Part shown: positions 23,308 through 30,801 of the stretch, piece after piece
Layout of the letters: every line of letters starts with the position of its first letter
Numbering within the stretch: the first letter of the stretch is position 1
DNA from: a bacterium
Lineage (GTDB): Bacteria; Gemmatimonadota; Glassbacteria; GWA2-58-10
Assembly: GCA_021372515.1 (NCBI GenBank)
Contig: JAJFUG010000133.1
Location: forward strand, 1 to 34,922
Direction of reading: 5' to 3'
Length of the DNA: 34,922 nt
The notes under the pieces: model-generated
The model's input: only the letters and a program-made list of their open reading frames with translations
Told to the model about the DNA's origin: nothing
The model's database searches: none
Translations under genes and position numbers: made by a program

Positions 23308-24681
23308 CTATGGCCGGAGGCCGCGAATCGCGGCCTCGATCGATTCGGCGGTTATCTGGACTGTCTGCAGGAGCTCATCCTCGCTGAAAGACAGGTGCGG
23401 CATCAGGACGATGATATCCCCAAGGGGACGGATTATCAGGCCGCGGCGGCGCGCCTCCAGGACCACCCGGTGGCCCAGGCGCAGCCCGGAGGGCCAGCTT
23501 TGGCGCGTGTCGCGGTCGGCGACCAGCTCGATCCCGACCATGAAACCCATCTGGCGCACCTCGCCCACATGCTCCAGGGTGGCCACCTCGAGCTGAAGGG
23601 TGCGGCGCAGAAGATCGATCTTCGGCTGCATGCGCTCCAGCACCCGCTCGTTCTCGAAAACCTCCAGGCTGGCCAGGGCCGCGGCCGCCCCCAACTGGTT
23701 GCCGGTAAACGAGTGGCCGTGGAAAAAAGTGACCGGCTCGCCAGGGGCGCCCAGGAAACGCTCGTAAATCTTTTCGCTCACCAGGGTGGCGGCCATGGGC
23801 AGGTAGCCGCCGGTGAGGCCCTTGGCGCAGCAGAGCAAGTCCGGCGAGACCGACTCGTGCTCGCAGGCGAACATCCGCCCGGTGCGGCCGAACCCGGTTG
23901 CAACCTCATCCGTGATCAGCAGAAGCCCGTATCGGTCGCAGATCGCGCGCACCCCGGCCAGGAACCCCCGCTCGGCCACCACCATCCCGCCCGCGCCCTG
24001 CACCAGCGGCTCGATTATCAGCGCGCCCAGATACTCGGCCCCGTCGCGGACCAGGTCCTCCAGGCTCTCCAGGCAGTGGGCCAGGTAGCTTTCCCGTGAG
24101 CGCGGCGGCCCGAAACGGTAGTAGAATGGGTACTCGGCGAACAAAACCGGGAACAGCAGGTCGCGGAACGCACCGTGAAACAGGTCCATCCCGCCCACGC
24201 TTACCGCGCCCAGGGTGTCGCCGTGGTAGGCGTTGCGGAACGAGACGAACCCGGTGCGCTCGCGCTCGGCCGGGTCGGGGCTGAGGCGGCGGTACTGGTA
24301 GGCCATCTTGAGCGCGATCTCCACCGCGGTGGAGCCGTTGTCCGAGAAGAACACCCGGCTCAAGCCCTGCGGGGTGACCTCGATCAGGCGTTCGGCCAGA
24401 GCGCAGACCGGCTCGCTGCTCAAGCCGAGCAGGGTGCTGTGGCTGATCCGCGCAGCCTGCTCGGCTATGGCGCGGGTTATGTGCGGGTGGTTGTGGCCGT
24501 GCAGGGTGACCCAGAGCGAGGAGACCCCGTCCAGGTAGCGGCGGCCCTCGGTATCGAACAGGAACGAGCCCTCACCGCGCGCGATGACCGGGAATTGCTC
24601 CTCCTGCCAGGCGCGCATCGCGGTGAAAGGGTGCCAGATATGGGTGCGGTCAAGCGCCCGAAGGTCCTTTTCGTTCGGCAA
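23308..24681 (-). CDS. bioA: Adenosylmethionine-8-amino-7-oxononanoate aminotransferase BioA
   Basis: BioA (457 residues) is a PLP enzyme that converts KAPA to DAPA in biotin synthesis using S-adenosylmethionine as amino donor. The class III aminotransferase pattern is clear: HIWHPFTAM at the N-terminus (a BioA hallmark), NAYHGDTLGAVSVGG, LLITDEVATGFGRTG and the PLP lysine in LLCCAKGLTGGYLPMAAT. HGHSFTGNQLGAAAALASL follows. The start is TTG at 24681, with GGAG seven bases upstream, overlapping the end of bioB by 32 bp. The neighbours are bioB upstream and the glycoside-hydrolase-like gene downstream. bioF and bioD are not in the window. Confidence 0.93.
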   Translation of the reverse strand: MPNEKDLRALDRTHIWHPFTAMRAWQEEQFPVIARGEGSFLFDTEGRRYLDGVSSLWVTLHGHNHPHITRAIAEQAARISHSTLLGLSSEPVCALAERLIEVTPQGLSRVFFSDNGSTAVEIALKMAYQYRRLSPDPAERERTGFVSFRNAYHGDTLGAVSVGGMDLFHGAFRDLLFPVLFAEYPFYYRFGPPRSRESYLAHCLESLEDLVRDGAEYLGALIIEPLVQGAGGMVVAERGFLAGVRAICDRYGLLLITDEVATGFGRTGRMFACEHESVSPDLLCCAKGLTGGYLPMAATLVSEKIYERFLGAPGEPVTFFHGHSFTGNQLGAAAALASLEVFENERVLERMQPKIDLLRRTLQLEVATLEHVGEVRQMGFMVGIELVADRDTRQSWPSGLRLGHRVVLEARRRGLIIRPLGDIIVLMPHLSFSEDELLQTVQITAESIEAAIRGLRP

Positions 24682-25660
24682 AGTACGGCTCCAGTCCCAG
24701 GTCGGCGATCATTTGCAGGTCGTCATTGCTGTCGCGGCCGCTGGTGGTCAGGTAGTCACCGATCAGCAGGCCGTTCGCCCCGGCCCAGAAAACCAGGGGC
24801 TGAAGGTCACGCAGGTTGCGTTGCCGTCCGCCGCAGATCACGATGTCGCGCTCGGGCAGGACCAGGCGGAACATGGCGATTATCCGCAAACAGAGTTCGG
24901 GGGTCAGGTTGTCCGCACCCTCCAGCGGGGTGCCGGGGATGGGATGCAGGAAATTGAGCGGCACCGAATCCACGCCCAACTCGTCCAGCTCCAGGGCGAA
25001 ATCCACCCGGTCCGTGTCGCTCTCGCCCAGGCCGAAGATGCCGCCGCTGCAGACCCTGAGGCCCAGCGACTTGGCCAGGCGCACCATCTGAACCCTTTCG
25101 GCGCGGCTGTGGGTGCTGCAGATACGGCCGAAAAAGGCCCGGCTGGTCTCGAGGTTGTGGTGGAAACAATCCAGGCCGGCCACTTTCAGCCGGGCCAGGG
25201 ACTCGCGGTCCATCTGTCCCAGGCTGGCGCAACGCTGACGGTCGCCGTGACTGGCTGCGATACGCCGCAGCGCCGCCTCCAGTACTGCGAGCTCGGCCTC
25301 GCGGCTCACTCCCGCTCCGCTGGTCACGATCGAGAACTCGCCCGCCCCGCGCGCATAGGCTCGGGTCGCCGACTCGGCCAGACGGTCCGCGCCGAGCAGC
25401 GGGTAGCGCTCCACCGCGGCGCCGTGGTGCGAGCTCTGGGCGCAGAAAGCGCAGTCCTCGCCACAGGCCCCGCTGCGGGCGTTGACAATGGAGCACAGGC
25501 GCACCCGGGCCCCGCTGTGCCTGCGCCGGGCGGCATCTGACAGGGCCAGGACCTCGCTCAGCGCCAGACTGCGGTCGCCCAGCACCCGTAACGCGTTCTC
25601 CCGCCCGATCCGTCCCCGCCCCGCCAGCTCTTCCTTTATATCTTGCAGGGAATCCGTCAT
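24650..25660 (-). CDS. bioB: Biotin synthase BioB, type-II-like (altered auxiliary-cluster ligands)
   Basis: BioB (336 residues) is the radical-SAM enzyme that inserts sulfur into dethiobiotin. The radical-SAM cluster ligands are Cys66, Cys70 and Cys73 (SGACGEDCAFC). In E. coli BioB the sulfur-donor [2Fe-2S] cluster is held by Cys97, Cys128, Cys188 and Arg260. Here Cys144 (CASLG) and Cys204 (CSGGIFGLGES) are kept, but the Cys97 position is Ser110 (EFSIVTSG) and the Arg260 position is Val274 (DIVICGGR), with a new Cys276. Extra cysteines such as Cys56 (LCSIVNARSGAC) occur. This pattern fits the type II BioB of anaerobes, which use a different auxiliary cluster. The ATG at 25660 is chosen (AAAGG seven bases upstream); longer upstream frames run through the promoter region. 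Confidence 0.93.
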   Translation of the reverse strand: MTDSLQDIKEELAGRGRIGRENALRVLGDRSLALSEVLALSDAARRRHSGARVRLCSIVNARSGACGEDCAFCAQSSHHGAAVERYPLLGADRLAESATRAYARGAGEFSIVTSGAGVSREAELAVLEAALRRIAASHGDRQRCASLGQMDRESLARLKVAGLDCFHHNLETSRAFFGRICSTHSRAERVQMVRLAKSLGLRVCSGGIFGLGESDTDRVDFALELDELGVDSVPLNFLHPIPGTPLEGADNLTPELCLRIIAMFRLVLPERDIVICGGRQRNLRDLQPLVFWAGANGLLIGDYLTTSGRDSNDDLQMIADLGLEPYFAERKGPSGA

Positions 25661-25745
25661 CCCCCGACCTTTCTTGCAGACTTTCGCCCTAAAACCATCC
25701 GGAGCCGGAACCGCGCGCCGCGCCCGGCTCCCGGACACATTGAAG

Positions 25746-25773
25746 AATATACATTTCAGCTCTGGAATAGCAA
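25746..25773 (-). promoter_or_regulatory. Probable promoter of bioB-bioA operon
   Basis: On the minus strand TTGCTA and TATATT are 16 bases apart. The start near 25739 would leave a leader of about 79 bases. That leader contains an inverted repeat, GGAGCCGG at 25701-25708 and CCGGCTCC at 25724-25731, enclosing a GCGC-rich loop. I see no BirA-type operator. Confidence 0.45.
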
Positions 25774-25810
25774 ACAAATATTGCGCCGCGCCCGCTGTTG
25801 TCCAAAAGGA

Positions 25811-25839
25811 TTGACTTAGCGCGGCCAGGCGGGTTAAAT
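25811..25839 (+). promoter_or_regulatory. Probable promoter of the clpP-like operon
   Basis: TTGACT (five of six bases of the consensus) and TTAAAT are separated by 17 bases. The start near 25846 leaves about 55 bases before the start codon. It is divergent from the bioB promoter with under 40 bp between the two. Confidence 0.55.
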
Positions 25840-25900
25840 TCATGGATTATGGCCCGGAAAGCGGGTCACAACCAGCATGACGGGTTCAGGGAGGTTTTGG

Positions 25901-26503
25901 ATGATTATTCCGCAGGTATTCGAAAAAACGCCCCAGGGAGAAAGGGCTTTCGACATTTTCTCCCGCCTTCTGCGCGACAGGATAATCCTTCTGTCCAGCG
26001 AGATAGACGACAACCTGGCTAACCTGATCGTGGCGCAGCTTCTGTTCCTCGAGGCCGAGGATCCGGGCCGCGACATCAACCTGTACATAAATTCGCCGGG
26101 CGGCTCCATGACGAACGCGCTGGCGGTGTACGACACCATGCAGTTCGTCAAGCCGGATGTCAGCACGATCTGCACCGGCATGGCCGGGGCGAGCGCCGCG
26201 CTGCTGATGTCGGCCGGAACCAGGGGCAAGCGCATGTGCCTGCCCAGCACCCGGTTTGTCCTGCACCAGGTCTACGGTGCGGCCGAGGGCCCGGCTGTCG
26301 ACGTGCTGATCGCCGCCCGCGAGGTGGAACGTCAGCGCGAGGCGTTCAACACCCTGCTGTCGCAGCATACGGGCAGGACAGCGAAGAAGATCGAGAAAGA
26401 GACCGAACGGGTGTTCTACCTGAGCGCCGAGGAGGCCATCGAATACGGTCTGGTGGACCGTGTGATCCAGGGCGAGGGCTTTAACGACAACAGCGGAAAA
26501 TAG
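25901..26503 (+). CDS. ClpP-family protein lacking catalytic Ser and Asp (ClpR-like)
   Basis: This 200-residue ClpP homologue aligns without gaps to mature E. coli ClpP over nearly its full length (GERAFDIFSRLL, NLIVAQLLFLEAE, LYINSPGG, YDTMQF.KPDVSTIC). The active site is changed. The segment GQAASMGA reads GMAGASAA, so the catalytic Ser97 position is Ala97, with Ser98 one residue later. Catalytic Asp171 is Val171 (ETERVFYLSA against DTERDRFLSA). Only His122 (LHQ) remains, and the following Pro is Val. It may be an inactive ClpR-like ring partner or use a shifted nucleophile. The ATG at 25901 has GGAGG six bases upstream and gives a propeptide-free start. No tig or clpX is adjacent, so this is probably a second paralogue. 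Confidence 0.88.
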   Translation: MIIPQVFEKTPQGERAFDIFSRLLRDRIILLSSEIDDNLANLIVAQLLFLEAEDPGRDINLYINSPGGSMTNALAVYDTMQFVKPDVSTICTGMAGASAALLMSAGTRGKRMCLPSTRFVLHQVYGAAEGPAVDVLIAAREVERQREAFNTLLSQHTGRTAKKIEKETERVFYLSAEEAIEYGLVDRVIQGEGFNDNSGK

Positions 26504-26526: not shown

Positions 26527-27567
26527 GTGCGCAAGGTACTGTTTGAAAGAATCAATATCGGGCTGGCAGTCTCGGTTATCGGTTGTGTTCTCCTGGCCGC
26601 CTGCGGCGGCAAGGAAAAGAACCCGTACCTGGAAAGCGTCAAGATCGAGCAGCTCACGATCAAACCCACCCCGAGACTCGATGAGGTCGATCTCACCGCG
26701 CGCCTGGCCGCGGCCGTGCTGGATTCCCTGCGCAACGGCGCCGATTTCGCGGTCATGGCCAAGCGCTACAGCTCGCATGCCAGCGCCACCCACGGCGGGA
26801 TGCTCACCCTGGTCCCAGGCTGGATGCCGGCCGAGTTCGATGACAGCCTGGCTGTCCTGCCGGATGGCCGGCTGAGCGGTGTGATCCGCACCCAGACCTC
26901 GGTGTTCATCGTGGCGCGCGATTCCAGCCAGTACCTTTCGGTCCGCAGCAGCCATATCCTGATCGCACCCGACACCACCCGCGCCTGGGTCAGCCGCGAC
27001 AAGGCCTGGAAAGAGGCCGAGGACAAGGCCTGGGAACTCTACCGCCGGATAAAGAACGGCGAGAGTTTCTACGACCTGGCCAAGGAATTTTCGAAGGACC
27101 CCGGCTCGGCGCAGAATGGCGGCGACCTCGGCTGGACCAAGCGCAACACCATGGTCCGGGAATTCGAGGACGTCGCTTTCACCCAGGAGGAGGGGGCGGT
27201 CCACGAGCCGGTCAAGACCCGTTTCGGCTGGCACGTCATCCGGACGGTCAAGAAAAAGGACCAGAACTGCTACCTGCGCCTGATCGAATTCAAGGTGCCG
27301 CTGAGCCAAGAGGACCTGGCGCGGGCCCGCAAAGTGGCCGAGCAGGCCAGGCGGCAGGCCCTTTCCGGTGAGCAGCTCGAAAAAATTGCCGCCGAGCTGA
27401 ACTCCACCTCCGAAGCCGAGGTGAGCTATTCCAAGCCCTACGAAGTGCGGAAGAGACTGCTTCTGCCGCAGATTGCCGAAAAGATAGAGAAACTGGACGC
27501 GGGTGACATCTCGGAGCTGATAAGCGGAGACAGCAACTACTATTTTATCCGCCTTATGGAGAAATGA
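26527..27567 (+). CDS. Lipoprotein parvulin-type peptidyl-prolyl isomerase (SurA/PrsA/PpiC-like)
   Basis: This 346-residue putative envelope foldase has a lipoprotein signal peptide (about residues 1-24) with lipobox LLAAC. A degenerate parvulin-like region follows (about 60-140, DFAVMAKRYSSHASATHGGMLTLVPGWMPAEFDDSL), then a complete one (about 145-250). The latter has VRSSHILI, FYDLAKEFSKDPGSAQNGGDLGW and RFGWHVIRTV, all parvulin signatures. The start is the GTG at 26527 with GGAG six bases upstream. A GTG at 26503 that overlaps the clpP stop by one base is an alternative and would lengthen the N-terminus. Co-transcription with the ClpP-like gene suggests a shared proteostasis role, although they act in different compartments. 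Confidence 0.85.
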   Translation: MRKVLFERINIGLAVSVIGCVLLAACGGKEKNPYLESVKIEQLTIKPTPRLDEVDLTARLAAAVLDSLRNGADFAVMAKRYSSHASATHGGMLTLVPGWMPAEFDDSLAVLPDGRLSGVIRTQTSVFIVARDSSQYLSVRSSHILIAPDTTRAWVSRDKAWKEAEDKAWELYRRIKNGESFYDLAKEFSKDPGSAQNGGDLGWTKRNTMVREFEDVAFTQEEGAVHEPVKTRFGWHVIRTVKKKDQNCYLRLIEFKVPLSQEDLARARKVAEQARRQALSGEQLEKIAAELNSTSEAEVSYSKPYEVRKRLLLPQIAEKIEKLDAGDISELISGDSNYYFIRLMEK

Positions 27568-27867: not shown

Positions 27868-30801
27868 ATGACCAGGACCCCCAGGATACAGGGACCGGAA
27901 CATAGTCCGGGCTCAGCACAAGCCCGTGAGATGCCCCGGATCTCTCCCGAGAATAACAAAAGGCTGCTTGAACTGTTCCTGACCCAGTCGCGGGAGGGAG
28001 TGTTCCTGCTCACTTTCGATCCTCCGCTGAACTGGGCCCAGGCTAAGAACAAGGCCCGGGCCCTGGAGTCGGCGATCGAGCGCCACCGTCTGGCCCGCGC
28101 CAACGATGTGCTGCTGCTCCGGCTCGGCCTGAATGCAGGCGAGGTCGAGTCGCTGCACCTGAAAGACCTGCTCCCTCCGGATGAGTGGTCGCGGACTGAA
28201 TTCTGGCATGAGCTTTTCGACCAGGGCAGCCGCAGATTCCACTGGGCGACCGGGACGGAGCTGCCGGGACAGCCGGCCGGACTGGAGGGGGAGTGTTTCT
28301 GTCTGTACGAGGCCGGGGGTCTGATAAGCGGTGTCTGCGGGATTATCCGCGAGGACGCCGCCCCGGACGCGAGAAAGACCAGTCCCGGGGAAATAGAAAG
28401 CCTCTACCGCCTGCTCTCCGAGAACACCACCGACCTGATCTCGCGCCACAGCGACGAGGGAGTGTTCCTCTACCTTTCGCCGGCCTGTGAGAACCTGCTC
28501 GGCTACTGCCCGGAAGAGCTCCTGGGCGACTCGATCTACAACTATTTCCATCCCGATGACCTGAACACGGTCATCCGCGCGCATTCCAACATTCTCCGCA
28601 AATCCGAACACTACACGATCCGCTACCGAATCCGGCACAAGGACGGTCACTACGCGTGGTTCGAGACCACGAACCGGACCATCCGCGACCCGAAAAGCGG
28701 CAAGACACGCGAAATTATCGCGGTCTCGCGGGACATAAGCGACCGGGTTCTGGTGGAGACCCGTCTGCGCGAAAGCGAGAACCTTTCGCGCACCATGCTC
28801 GACGCCACCACGGACTCGGCGTTCCTGTTCGACACGCGGGCGGTGTGCCTGGCGGTCAACAACATCGGCGCCAGCCGCCTGAACCGCAAGCCGGAGGAGA
28901 TAGTCGGCCGCAGCATGGCCGATTTATTCCCCTCCCCGGTTTACGAGTTCCGGCAAAAGATTTTCGACAGCGTGATAAGCCGTAGGGAAAGCATGCGGGT
29001 CCAGGATGAGCGCCAGGGGTTCCATTTCGACACTTTCTATTCCCCCATCCTGGATGATCAGGGTGAGGTGACGATGGTGGCGCTGTTCGCCCAGGACATC
29101 ACCGAGCGCGTGGGCTACGAGCAGAAACTGAAGCTGTTCGAGAAAGTGTTCGAGAACACGCTGGAGGGAATCCTGATCACCGACTCCGCCGCGAACATCC
29201 TGGCGGTGAACGCCTCTTTCCAGACCATTACGGGGTACTCGTCCGAGGAGGTGACAGGACGTAACCCGAGCCTTCTGCGCTCCGACCGCCACGATGCCGA
29301 GTTCTTCAGCCGGATGTGGAACAGCCTGCTCCAGAGCGGCTACTGGTCCGGTGAGATATGGAACCGCAGGAAGAGCGGCGAGGCCTATCCCGAATGGCTT
29401 TCGATCAGCGCCATCCGCGACCGTCACGACAAGCCGGTGCAGTACGTGGCTGTGTTCCACGATATAACCGAGGTCAAGCACAAGGAAGAGCAGATACGGA
29501 TACAAGCCTATTACGACGCCCTGACCGGCCTGCCCAACCGCAGCCTGCTCAAGGACCGCTTGAGCGTGGCCATCTCCCACGCCCAGCGGACCCGTCAGAA
29601 ACTGGCGGTCATTTTCATCGACCTGGACAATTTCAAGCATGTCAACGACAGCCTGGGGCACCAGGCCGGCGACCAGCTCCTGCTGGGCGTGGCCGACCGC
29701 CTGCGCCGCCTGACCCGTCGCGAGGACACGGTCTCGCGTCTTAGCGGGGACGAGTTCCTGGTGGTGATGACCGAGCTGACCGATGAGCGCTACGCCCTGC
29801 TGGCCGTGGAAAGGATACTGGAGGAGTTCCAGAAGCCTTTCCGGATCAGCGACCACGAGCTGCTGGTGACCACCAGTATCGGGATCGCTTTCTTCCCGGA
29901 GGACAGCACCGAGCCGGAAGACCTGATCCGCTGCGCCGACATCGCGATGTACCAGGCCAAGAAACAGGGCAAGAACAATTTCCGCCTCTTCACCAACGAG
30001 ATGAACGAAAAGGTGATCCAGAGGCTCTCGCGGGAGGAAAACCTGCGACGGGCCCTGGATCAGGATGAGCTGCGGGTCTATTTCCAGCCGCGCCTGAACG
30101 CCGCCAGCGGGAAGGTCGGAGGCATGGAGGCACTCTCGCGCTGGGTCAAGCCGGACGGGCAGGTGATCGGACCGGAAAACTACATCTCCCTGGCCGAGGA
30201 AACCGGCTTGATCCTGCCTCTGGGTGAGCGGGTGATCGAGCTGGCCTGCCAGGAGACCATGAAACTGGCCGCGGCGGGCTACCCCGACCTGCGCCTGGGG
30301 GTGAACCTGTCCCCCCGCCAGTTCAGCCAGAAAAAAATCCTGGAGAAGATCAAGGACATCCTCGCAAGGACCTCTTTCCCGCCCACGCGCCTGGTGGTGG
30401 AGATCACCGAGAGCACCCTGTTCGAGGACGTGGAGCGGACCAACAACCTGCTGGTTGAGCTGTCGGAGCTGGGGGTCAGCCTCGCGGTCGATGATTTCGG
30501 CACGGGCTATTCCTCGCTCAACCGTCTGAAACGCCTTCCCATCGACGAGCTCAAGGTGGACCGCTCCTTCGTGATGGACCTGGAGCAGGACCCGGATGAC
30601 GCCTGTATCGTGCGGACCATCATCAATATGGCCAAGGGGCTGCGGATGAGAGTGACCGCCGAGGGGGTGGAGACTCCCGGACAGCTCGATTTCCTGGTCA
30701 AGAGCGGCTGTGATGAGGTGCAGGGGTTCCTGTTCGGACGGCCGATGCCGCCGGAGAAATTCTTCGCCTATCTCAGGGAAAAAGACGCCCAGGCGCGATG
30801 A
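27868..30801 (+). CDS. PAS-PAS-PAS-GGDEF-EAL cyclic di-GMP signalling protein
   Basis: This 977-residue soluble signalling protein has an N-terminal PAS-like region (about 30-165), three PAS/PAC units (about 175-300, 305-425 and 430-550, each ending near a DI(S/T)D/ER or DITE motif), a GGDEF domain (about 555-720) and an EAL domain (about 735-970). The GGDEF signature is SGDEF (626-630), with an RRED I-site five residues before it. The EAL motif GGMEALSRW is at 751-759, with DDFGTGYSS and DELKVDRSFV further on, so phosphodiesterase activity is likely. Cyclase activity is uncertain because the first Gly is Ser. No membrane segment is visible. The start has only a weak GGAAAG site. It is a single-gene unit ending at a strong terminator. 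Confidence 0.92.
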   Translation: MTRTPRIQGPEHSPGSAQAREMPRISPENNKRLLELFLTQSREGVFLLTFDPPLNWAQAKNKARALESAIERHRLARANDVLLLRLGLNAGEVESLHLKDLLPPDEWSRTEFWHELFDQGSRRFHWATGTELPGQPAGLEGECFCLYEAGGLISGVCGIIREDAAPDARKTSPGEIESLYRLLSENTTDLISRHSDEGVFLYLSPACENLLGYCPEELLGDSIYNYFHPDDLNTVIRAHSNILRKSEHYTIRYRIRHKDGHYAWFETTNRTIRDPKSGKTREIIAVSRDISDRVLVETRLRESENLSRTMLDATTDSAFLFDTRAVCLAVNNIGASRLNRKPEEIVGRSMADLFPSPVYEFRQKIFDSVISRRESMRVQDERQGFHFDTFYSPILDDQGEVTMVALFAQDITERVGYEQKLKLFEKVFENTLEGILITDSAANILAVNASFQTITGYSSEEVTGRNPSLLRSDRHDAEFFSRMWNSLLQSGYWSGEIWNRRKSGEAYPEWLSISAIRDRHDKPVQYVAVFHDITEVKHKEEQIRIQAYYDALTGLPNRSLLKDRLSVAISHAQRTRQKLAVIFIDLDNFKHVNDSLGHQAGDQLLLGVADRLRRLTRREDTVSRLSGDEFLVVMTELTDERYALLAVERILEEFQKPFRISDHELLVTTSIGIAFFPEDSTEPEDLIRCADIAMYQAKKQGKNNFRLFTNEMNEKVIQRLSREENLRRALDQDELRVYFQPRLNAASGKVGGMEALSRWVKPDGQVIGPENYISLAEETGLILPLGERVIELACQETMKLAAAGYPDLRLGVNLSPRQFSQKKILEKIKDILARTSFPPTRLVVEITESTLFEDVERTNNLLVELSELGVSLAVDDFGTGYSSLNRLKRLPIDELKVDRSFVMDLEQDPDDACIVRTIINMAKGLRMRVTAEGVETPGQLDFLVKSGCDEVQGFLFGRPMPPEKFFAYLREKDAQAR

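Follow-up and report, generated by a model that had tools for sequence, protein, structure and literature searches.

Has a ClpP homologue with alanine at the catalytic serine position, and a serine directly beside it, become a ring subunit that no longer cuts, or has its active site been rebuilt around the neighbouring serine? The question is raised by a gene, called clpP* here, which lies at positions 25901..26503 (+) of the window, the whole stretch of 34,922 nucleotides that was analysed.

The clpP* gene and its catalytic residues

The open reading frame of clpP* encodes 200 amino acids from an ATG at 25901. A Shine-Dalgarno sequence, GGAGG (25890..25894, +), read directly in the sequence, is found 6 nt before this codon, and a sigma-70-like promoter match, TTGACT-18-TAAATT (25811..25840, +), is located 5' of the gene; the good start and promoter described in an earlier, sequence-only reading of this DNA are thus both present, the promoter as a consensus match only. 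The protein, ClpP*, matches the whole domain of PF00574 (residues 12-190; 234.7 bits, cut-off 20.2). A PDB search aligned it without gaps to the ClpP chains of E. coli and Coxiella, and the Foldseek matches of its predicted model are ClpPs (TM 0.83-0.86), in agreement with the intact fold that had been proposed. Concerning the more specific models, ClpP* scores below the cut-off of the ClpP equivalog TIGR00493 (268.1 vs 308.6 bits), above that of the looser subfamily model NF001368 (271.9 vs 249 bits) and below that of NF009204 (175.3 vs 263 bits), which we take to be the cyanobacterial ClpR model.

Residues are numbered as in E. coli ClpP, which is also the numbering of the protein. In the gapless alignment with E. 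coli ClpP, Ser97 is replaced by Ala, Met98 by Ser and Asp171 by Val, and His122 is retained; this computed alignment gives the same four residues that the sequence-only reading had named. The codons of Gly96-Ala97-Ser98 (GGG GCG AGC, 26186..26194, +) replace Ala-Ser-Met, the His122 codon is CAC (26264..26266, +) and that of Val171 is GTG (26411..26413, +). Position 97 is Ala in all six clpP* orthologues found, whereas it is Ser in 115/115 comparison ClpPs and also in further Patescibacteria-type ClpPs. All six proteins share the motif T-G-[IML]-A-G-A-S-A-A together with His122. Asp171 is retained in five of them, Val being found in the window only, where Glu also replaces Asp167, a residue invariant elsewhere (D167E is likewise private to the window genome). 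The two replaced residues had been read as one trait; the A97/S98 part is conserved in the related genomes (6/6), but V171 belongs to the window genome. The loss of both D167 and D171 there is what would be expected if catalytic constraint were gone.

Among 39 columns that are near-invariant in the 115 other ClpPs, only G73, S97 and G127 are broken across the whole clade. The surroundings of the active site and the substrate strand are altered (G96, P124V, L125Y, G127X with R/E/Q/A, Q131P), and the handle changes are L143E and G127X. The hydrophobic-pocket residues L23, L24, L48, F49, Y62, F82 and L114, presumably the sites that bind IGF-type loops, are kept, as is the ring-contact residue R170. 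Judged from these residues, the chaperone-docking pocket is largely kept.

Conservation, partners and descent

An orthologue of clpP* is found in all six genomes analysed from the window's family of uncultured bacteria, which span five genera, and its neighbourhood is identical in each (some genes are partial at sequence ends): the gene is divergent from bioB-bioA and a PpiC-type gene follows directly 3'. In the window the bioB frame is located at 24650..25843 (-), its true start probably lying inside the frame, and the bioA frame at 23308..24681 (-); both were named by eye from their translations. The PpiC-type (parvulin) peptidyl-prolyl isomerase (26527..27567, +; PF00639, 157.6 bits) probably starts at GTG 26527, and its frame is already open at GTG 26503, in overlap with the stop of clpP*. 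The protein has a lipoprotein-like signal with an apparent lipobox, LLAAC (start and lipobox assigned by eye), and the proposed link to an envelope foldase extends to 6/6 genomes. ClpP is cytosolic; the family pairs a gene for a cytosolic Clp subunit with one for a predicted exported foldase. Further 3' of the pair, at 27868-30801, a 977-aa frame encodes what appears by eye to be a PAS-GGDEF-EAL signalling protein.

A second, canonical clpP, which the sequence-only reading had proposed to look for, is present in the window's genome (C119) in a tig-clpP-clpX operon, and a canonical copy accompanies clpP* in each of the six genomes. All six also encode a ClpX, beside the canonical clpP, as well as a ClpC-like ATPase whose loop reads [VLM]GF. 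C119 and ClpP* have the same fold and length and about 51% identity; the Ser-His-Asp triad is intact only in C119.

Some other features of the ClpP complement were also seen. The canonical ClpP has Asn171 in four of the six family genomes (G001, G002, G004 and G005; loci L115, L117, L118 and L119), and in those four the A97 paralogue retains Asp171; in Listeria ClpP1, Asn at the corresponding site promotes inactive heptamers. A link between clpP* and this Asn171 was considered and dropped, since Asn also occurs in relatives for which no such paralogue turned up. In other families of the phylum (G031, G036, G008; L125, L126, L128), the second ClpP-like protein is of another sort and bears no relation to the A97 clade; it has about 40% identity, the motif TGWVASAGA and a Ser/His/Asn triad. 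A third match to PF00574 in the window's genome is weak (26 bits; G000:C32:4067-4276, L003) and falls in a 384-aa frame, which may encode a membrane protease of the SppA or NfeD kind.

Pairwise comparisons of clpP* gave dN/dS values of 0.11-0.30, against mostly 0.03-0.15 for canonical clpP; these figures are rough because dS is near saturation. Identity within the family is 63-81% for ClpP* and 81-91% for canonical ClpP. The clpP* gene is thus evolving faster than canonical clpP, yet it is clearly constrained and under purifying selection.

In the tree, clpP* forms a clade with support 100/99, which joins a ClpP from Patescibacteria whose motif is V-A-S-A-A-A (92/93), outside the group of the family's canonical ClpP. 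An AU test did not reject a single clade of clpP* with the canonical copies (p 0.22). The placement of the A97 clade speaks against the idea that the tig-linked clpP was duplicated recently in this family, but with that p value clpP* may stem either from transfer or from an old duplication. ClpP* may well have arisen independently of cyanobacterial ClpR; the trees covered ClpPs other than the latter.

The search beyond the family used a DNA pattern that required the exact NSPGG...HQ spacing and Ala or Gly at position 97. It was validated on the six known clpP* genes and is blind to ClpPs that lack His122 or have a different residue at 97, so that it does not survey all inactive ClpPs. Among the loci collected, it matched exactly the six clpP* genes; across 298 genomes of the phylum it found the same six and one match (G090) unlike ClpP. 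In about 850 further genomes, beyond those of the family, this pattern found no A97-type clpP. It matched nothing in 28 genomes drawn from a wide range of phyla, nor in the phyla of an Eisenbacteria genome (47 genomes), a Patescibacteria genome (192) or an Omnitrophota genome (145), and 149 genomes of the phylum of an Acidobacteriota genome (L064) gave only two matches, unlike ClpP; these two and that in G090 were judged from partial DNA reading. Six matches on viral contigs were set aside as chance reading frames. We found no description of this clade among the openly licensed full texts searched, which is weak evidence of absence.

A ring subunit or a rebuilt active site

On the residues and partners described above, we consider it fairly probable that ClpP* is a non-proteolytic, ClpR-like ring subunit which pairs with canonical ClpP; its role is probably structural or regulatory. 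This is the simplest reading, because there is no nucleophile at position 97, the docking surface is kept, a canonical partner is present in 6/6 genomes and Asp171 is damaged in one lineage. ClpP* would be a ring-forming paralogue that has lost peptide-bond hydrolysis, through the absence of the nucleophile at 97 and, in the window, of Asp171 as well. Together with the canonical ClpP present in its cell, it would form a mixed double ring, either of two different stacked heptamers or of mixed rings. In such a core, ClpP* may offer a docking face to ClpX or ClpC and may tune assembly, gating or substrate choice, and the canonical ClpP would do the cutting. If this is true, clpP* and clpP make up a simple two-subunit system for asking what inactive ring subunits do.

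Two observations stand against the ring subunit: His122 (6/6) and Asp171 (5/6) are kept, unlike in ClpR, and Ser98 is invariant despite switches between codon families, a stronger constraint than a dead site would require. Also, the handle changes L143E and G127X could mean that ClpP* does not pair with canonical ClpP. The sequence-only reading had suggested a ClpR-like non-proteolytic subunit outside the cyanobacteria; this fits best, with Ala97 fixed, canonical clpP in every genome, the pocket largely kept and further decay around Asp171 in the window, but ClpP* is not assignable to cyanobacterial ClpR itself, given the retained His122, Asp171 in five of six proteins and the score below the NF009204 cut-off.

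The other suggestion, an active site rebuilt around Ser98, is in our judgement unlikely. Here Ser98 would act as the nucleophile with His122 and (in 5/6) Asp171, the A-A-S-x-x segment having slid to A-G-A-S-A with Gly96 providing flexibility, and the enzyme would still cut, with altered specificity. The retention of His122 and Asp171 is in line with this, as is Ser98 itself, which is present in all six proteins although three genomes use AGC for it and the other three use TCN. These two codon families are not one step apart, and on the clpP* tree a minimum of one switch between them, and perhaps a second, is required, which argues that serine is selected at position 98. The same kind of switch occurred once at Ser65, a structural residue, so the switches at Ser98 indicate constraint and are not proof of catalysis. 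The ClpPs nearest in the tree have A-S-A-A-A, from which A-G-A-S-A-A is a one-residue slide, and pseudoenzymes whose catalytic residues have migrated have been described (PMC10211241). Aligning the serines by such a slide gains 3.5 score units before gap costs; the two gaps that it needs cost far more than this gain, and every search aligns ClpP* without gaps. In the predicted structures (monomers, mean pLDDT 82-85, from a 32-row alignment), the helix starts earlier in the window ClpP* (97-105) than in canonical ClpP (98-104): Gly96 occupies the pre-helix place which Ser97 holds in canonical ClpP, and Ser98 falls inside the helix. This is mildly against Ser98 as nucleophile, as weak evidence from monomer models. 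Val at position 171 in the window also counts against a rebuilt site. A related version, in which ClpP* is a re-registered serine peptidase (A-A-S to A-G-A-S, working with His122) that is now decaying in the window's genus, seems to us similarly doubtful. An active Ser98 would provide a rare case of a catalytic nucleophile that has shifted in register.

It is quite improbable that ClpP* forms a homo-oligomer of its own, neither cutting nor joining canonical ClpP, which might serve, for example, as a sequestering or chaperone-holding chamber or as a ClpX/ClpC decoy and be functionally linked to the PpiC-type lipoprotein gene. The changes in the handle helix and substrate strand (L143E, G127R/E/Q/A, Q131P) could favour self-pairing, and clpP* lies in a separate operon with the conserved PpiC-type gene; this neighbour is predicted to be exported, however, whereas ClpP is cytosolic, and no functional ClpP homo-14-mer that is wholly inactive is known to us. 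That clpP* is a pseudogene in decay, or an error of sequencing, is very hard to credit: D171V and D167E are private to the window genome and its branch is long, but A97/S98, the synteny and the open frame are common to six independent assemblies, dN/dS is well below 1 and the change from an Asp codon to GTG takes two base changes, all of which leaves standing the earlier description of the gene as not degraded.

ClpP* and known mixed Clp cores

Catalytically dead ClpP subunits are already known from cyanobacteria and the organelles descended from them. ClpR, which occurs in cyanobacteria, plastids and apicoplasts, is, as ClpP* presumably is, a ClpP homologue without a working triad beside an active ClpP in the same cell (PMC7966870). 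The published description of ClpR is of a protein that lacks the catalytic triad (PMC7966870), whereas the clade-wide loss in ClpP* is at Ser97 only, with His122 kept throughout and Asp171 kept in 5/6.

Two further systems combine ClpPs of different kinds. In the ClpP1P2 complex of Mycobacterium tuberculosis, catalysis by ClpP2 is dispensable and its chaperone-docking face is essential (PMC9067928). M. tuberculosis and the window's family each have two ClpP types, but M. tuberculosis ClpP2 has a natural catalytic serine (S110) and ClpP* naturally lacks Ser97; also, unlike the ClpP2 gene, clpP* does not share an operon with the second clpP of its genome. In Listeria monocytogenes, ClpP1 has a degenerate triad (Asp172 to Asn) and forms a mixed complex with canonical ClpP2, in which it is active; its truncated triad raises the affinity of the heterocomplex for ClpX (PMC5361862). 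Listeria ClpP1 keeps its serine and the loss is at Asp, whereas ClpP* loses Ser97. What appears new here is a probable pseudo-ClpP from outside the cyanobacterial lineage, in which a single targeted loss stands next to a conserved serine. If this is true, a second case in unrelated bacteria would suggest that mixed active and inactive Clp cores arose more than once.
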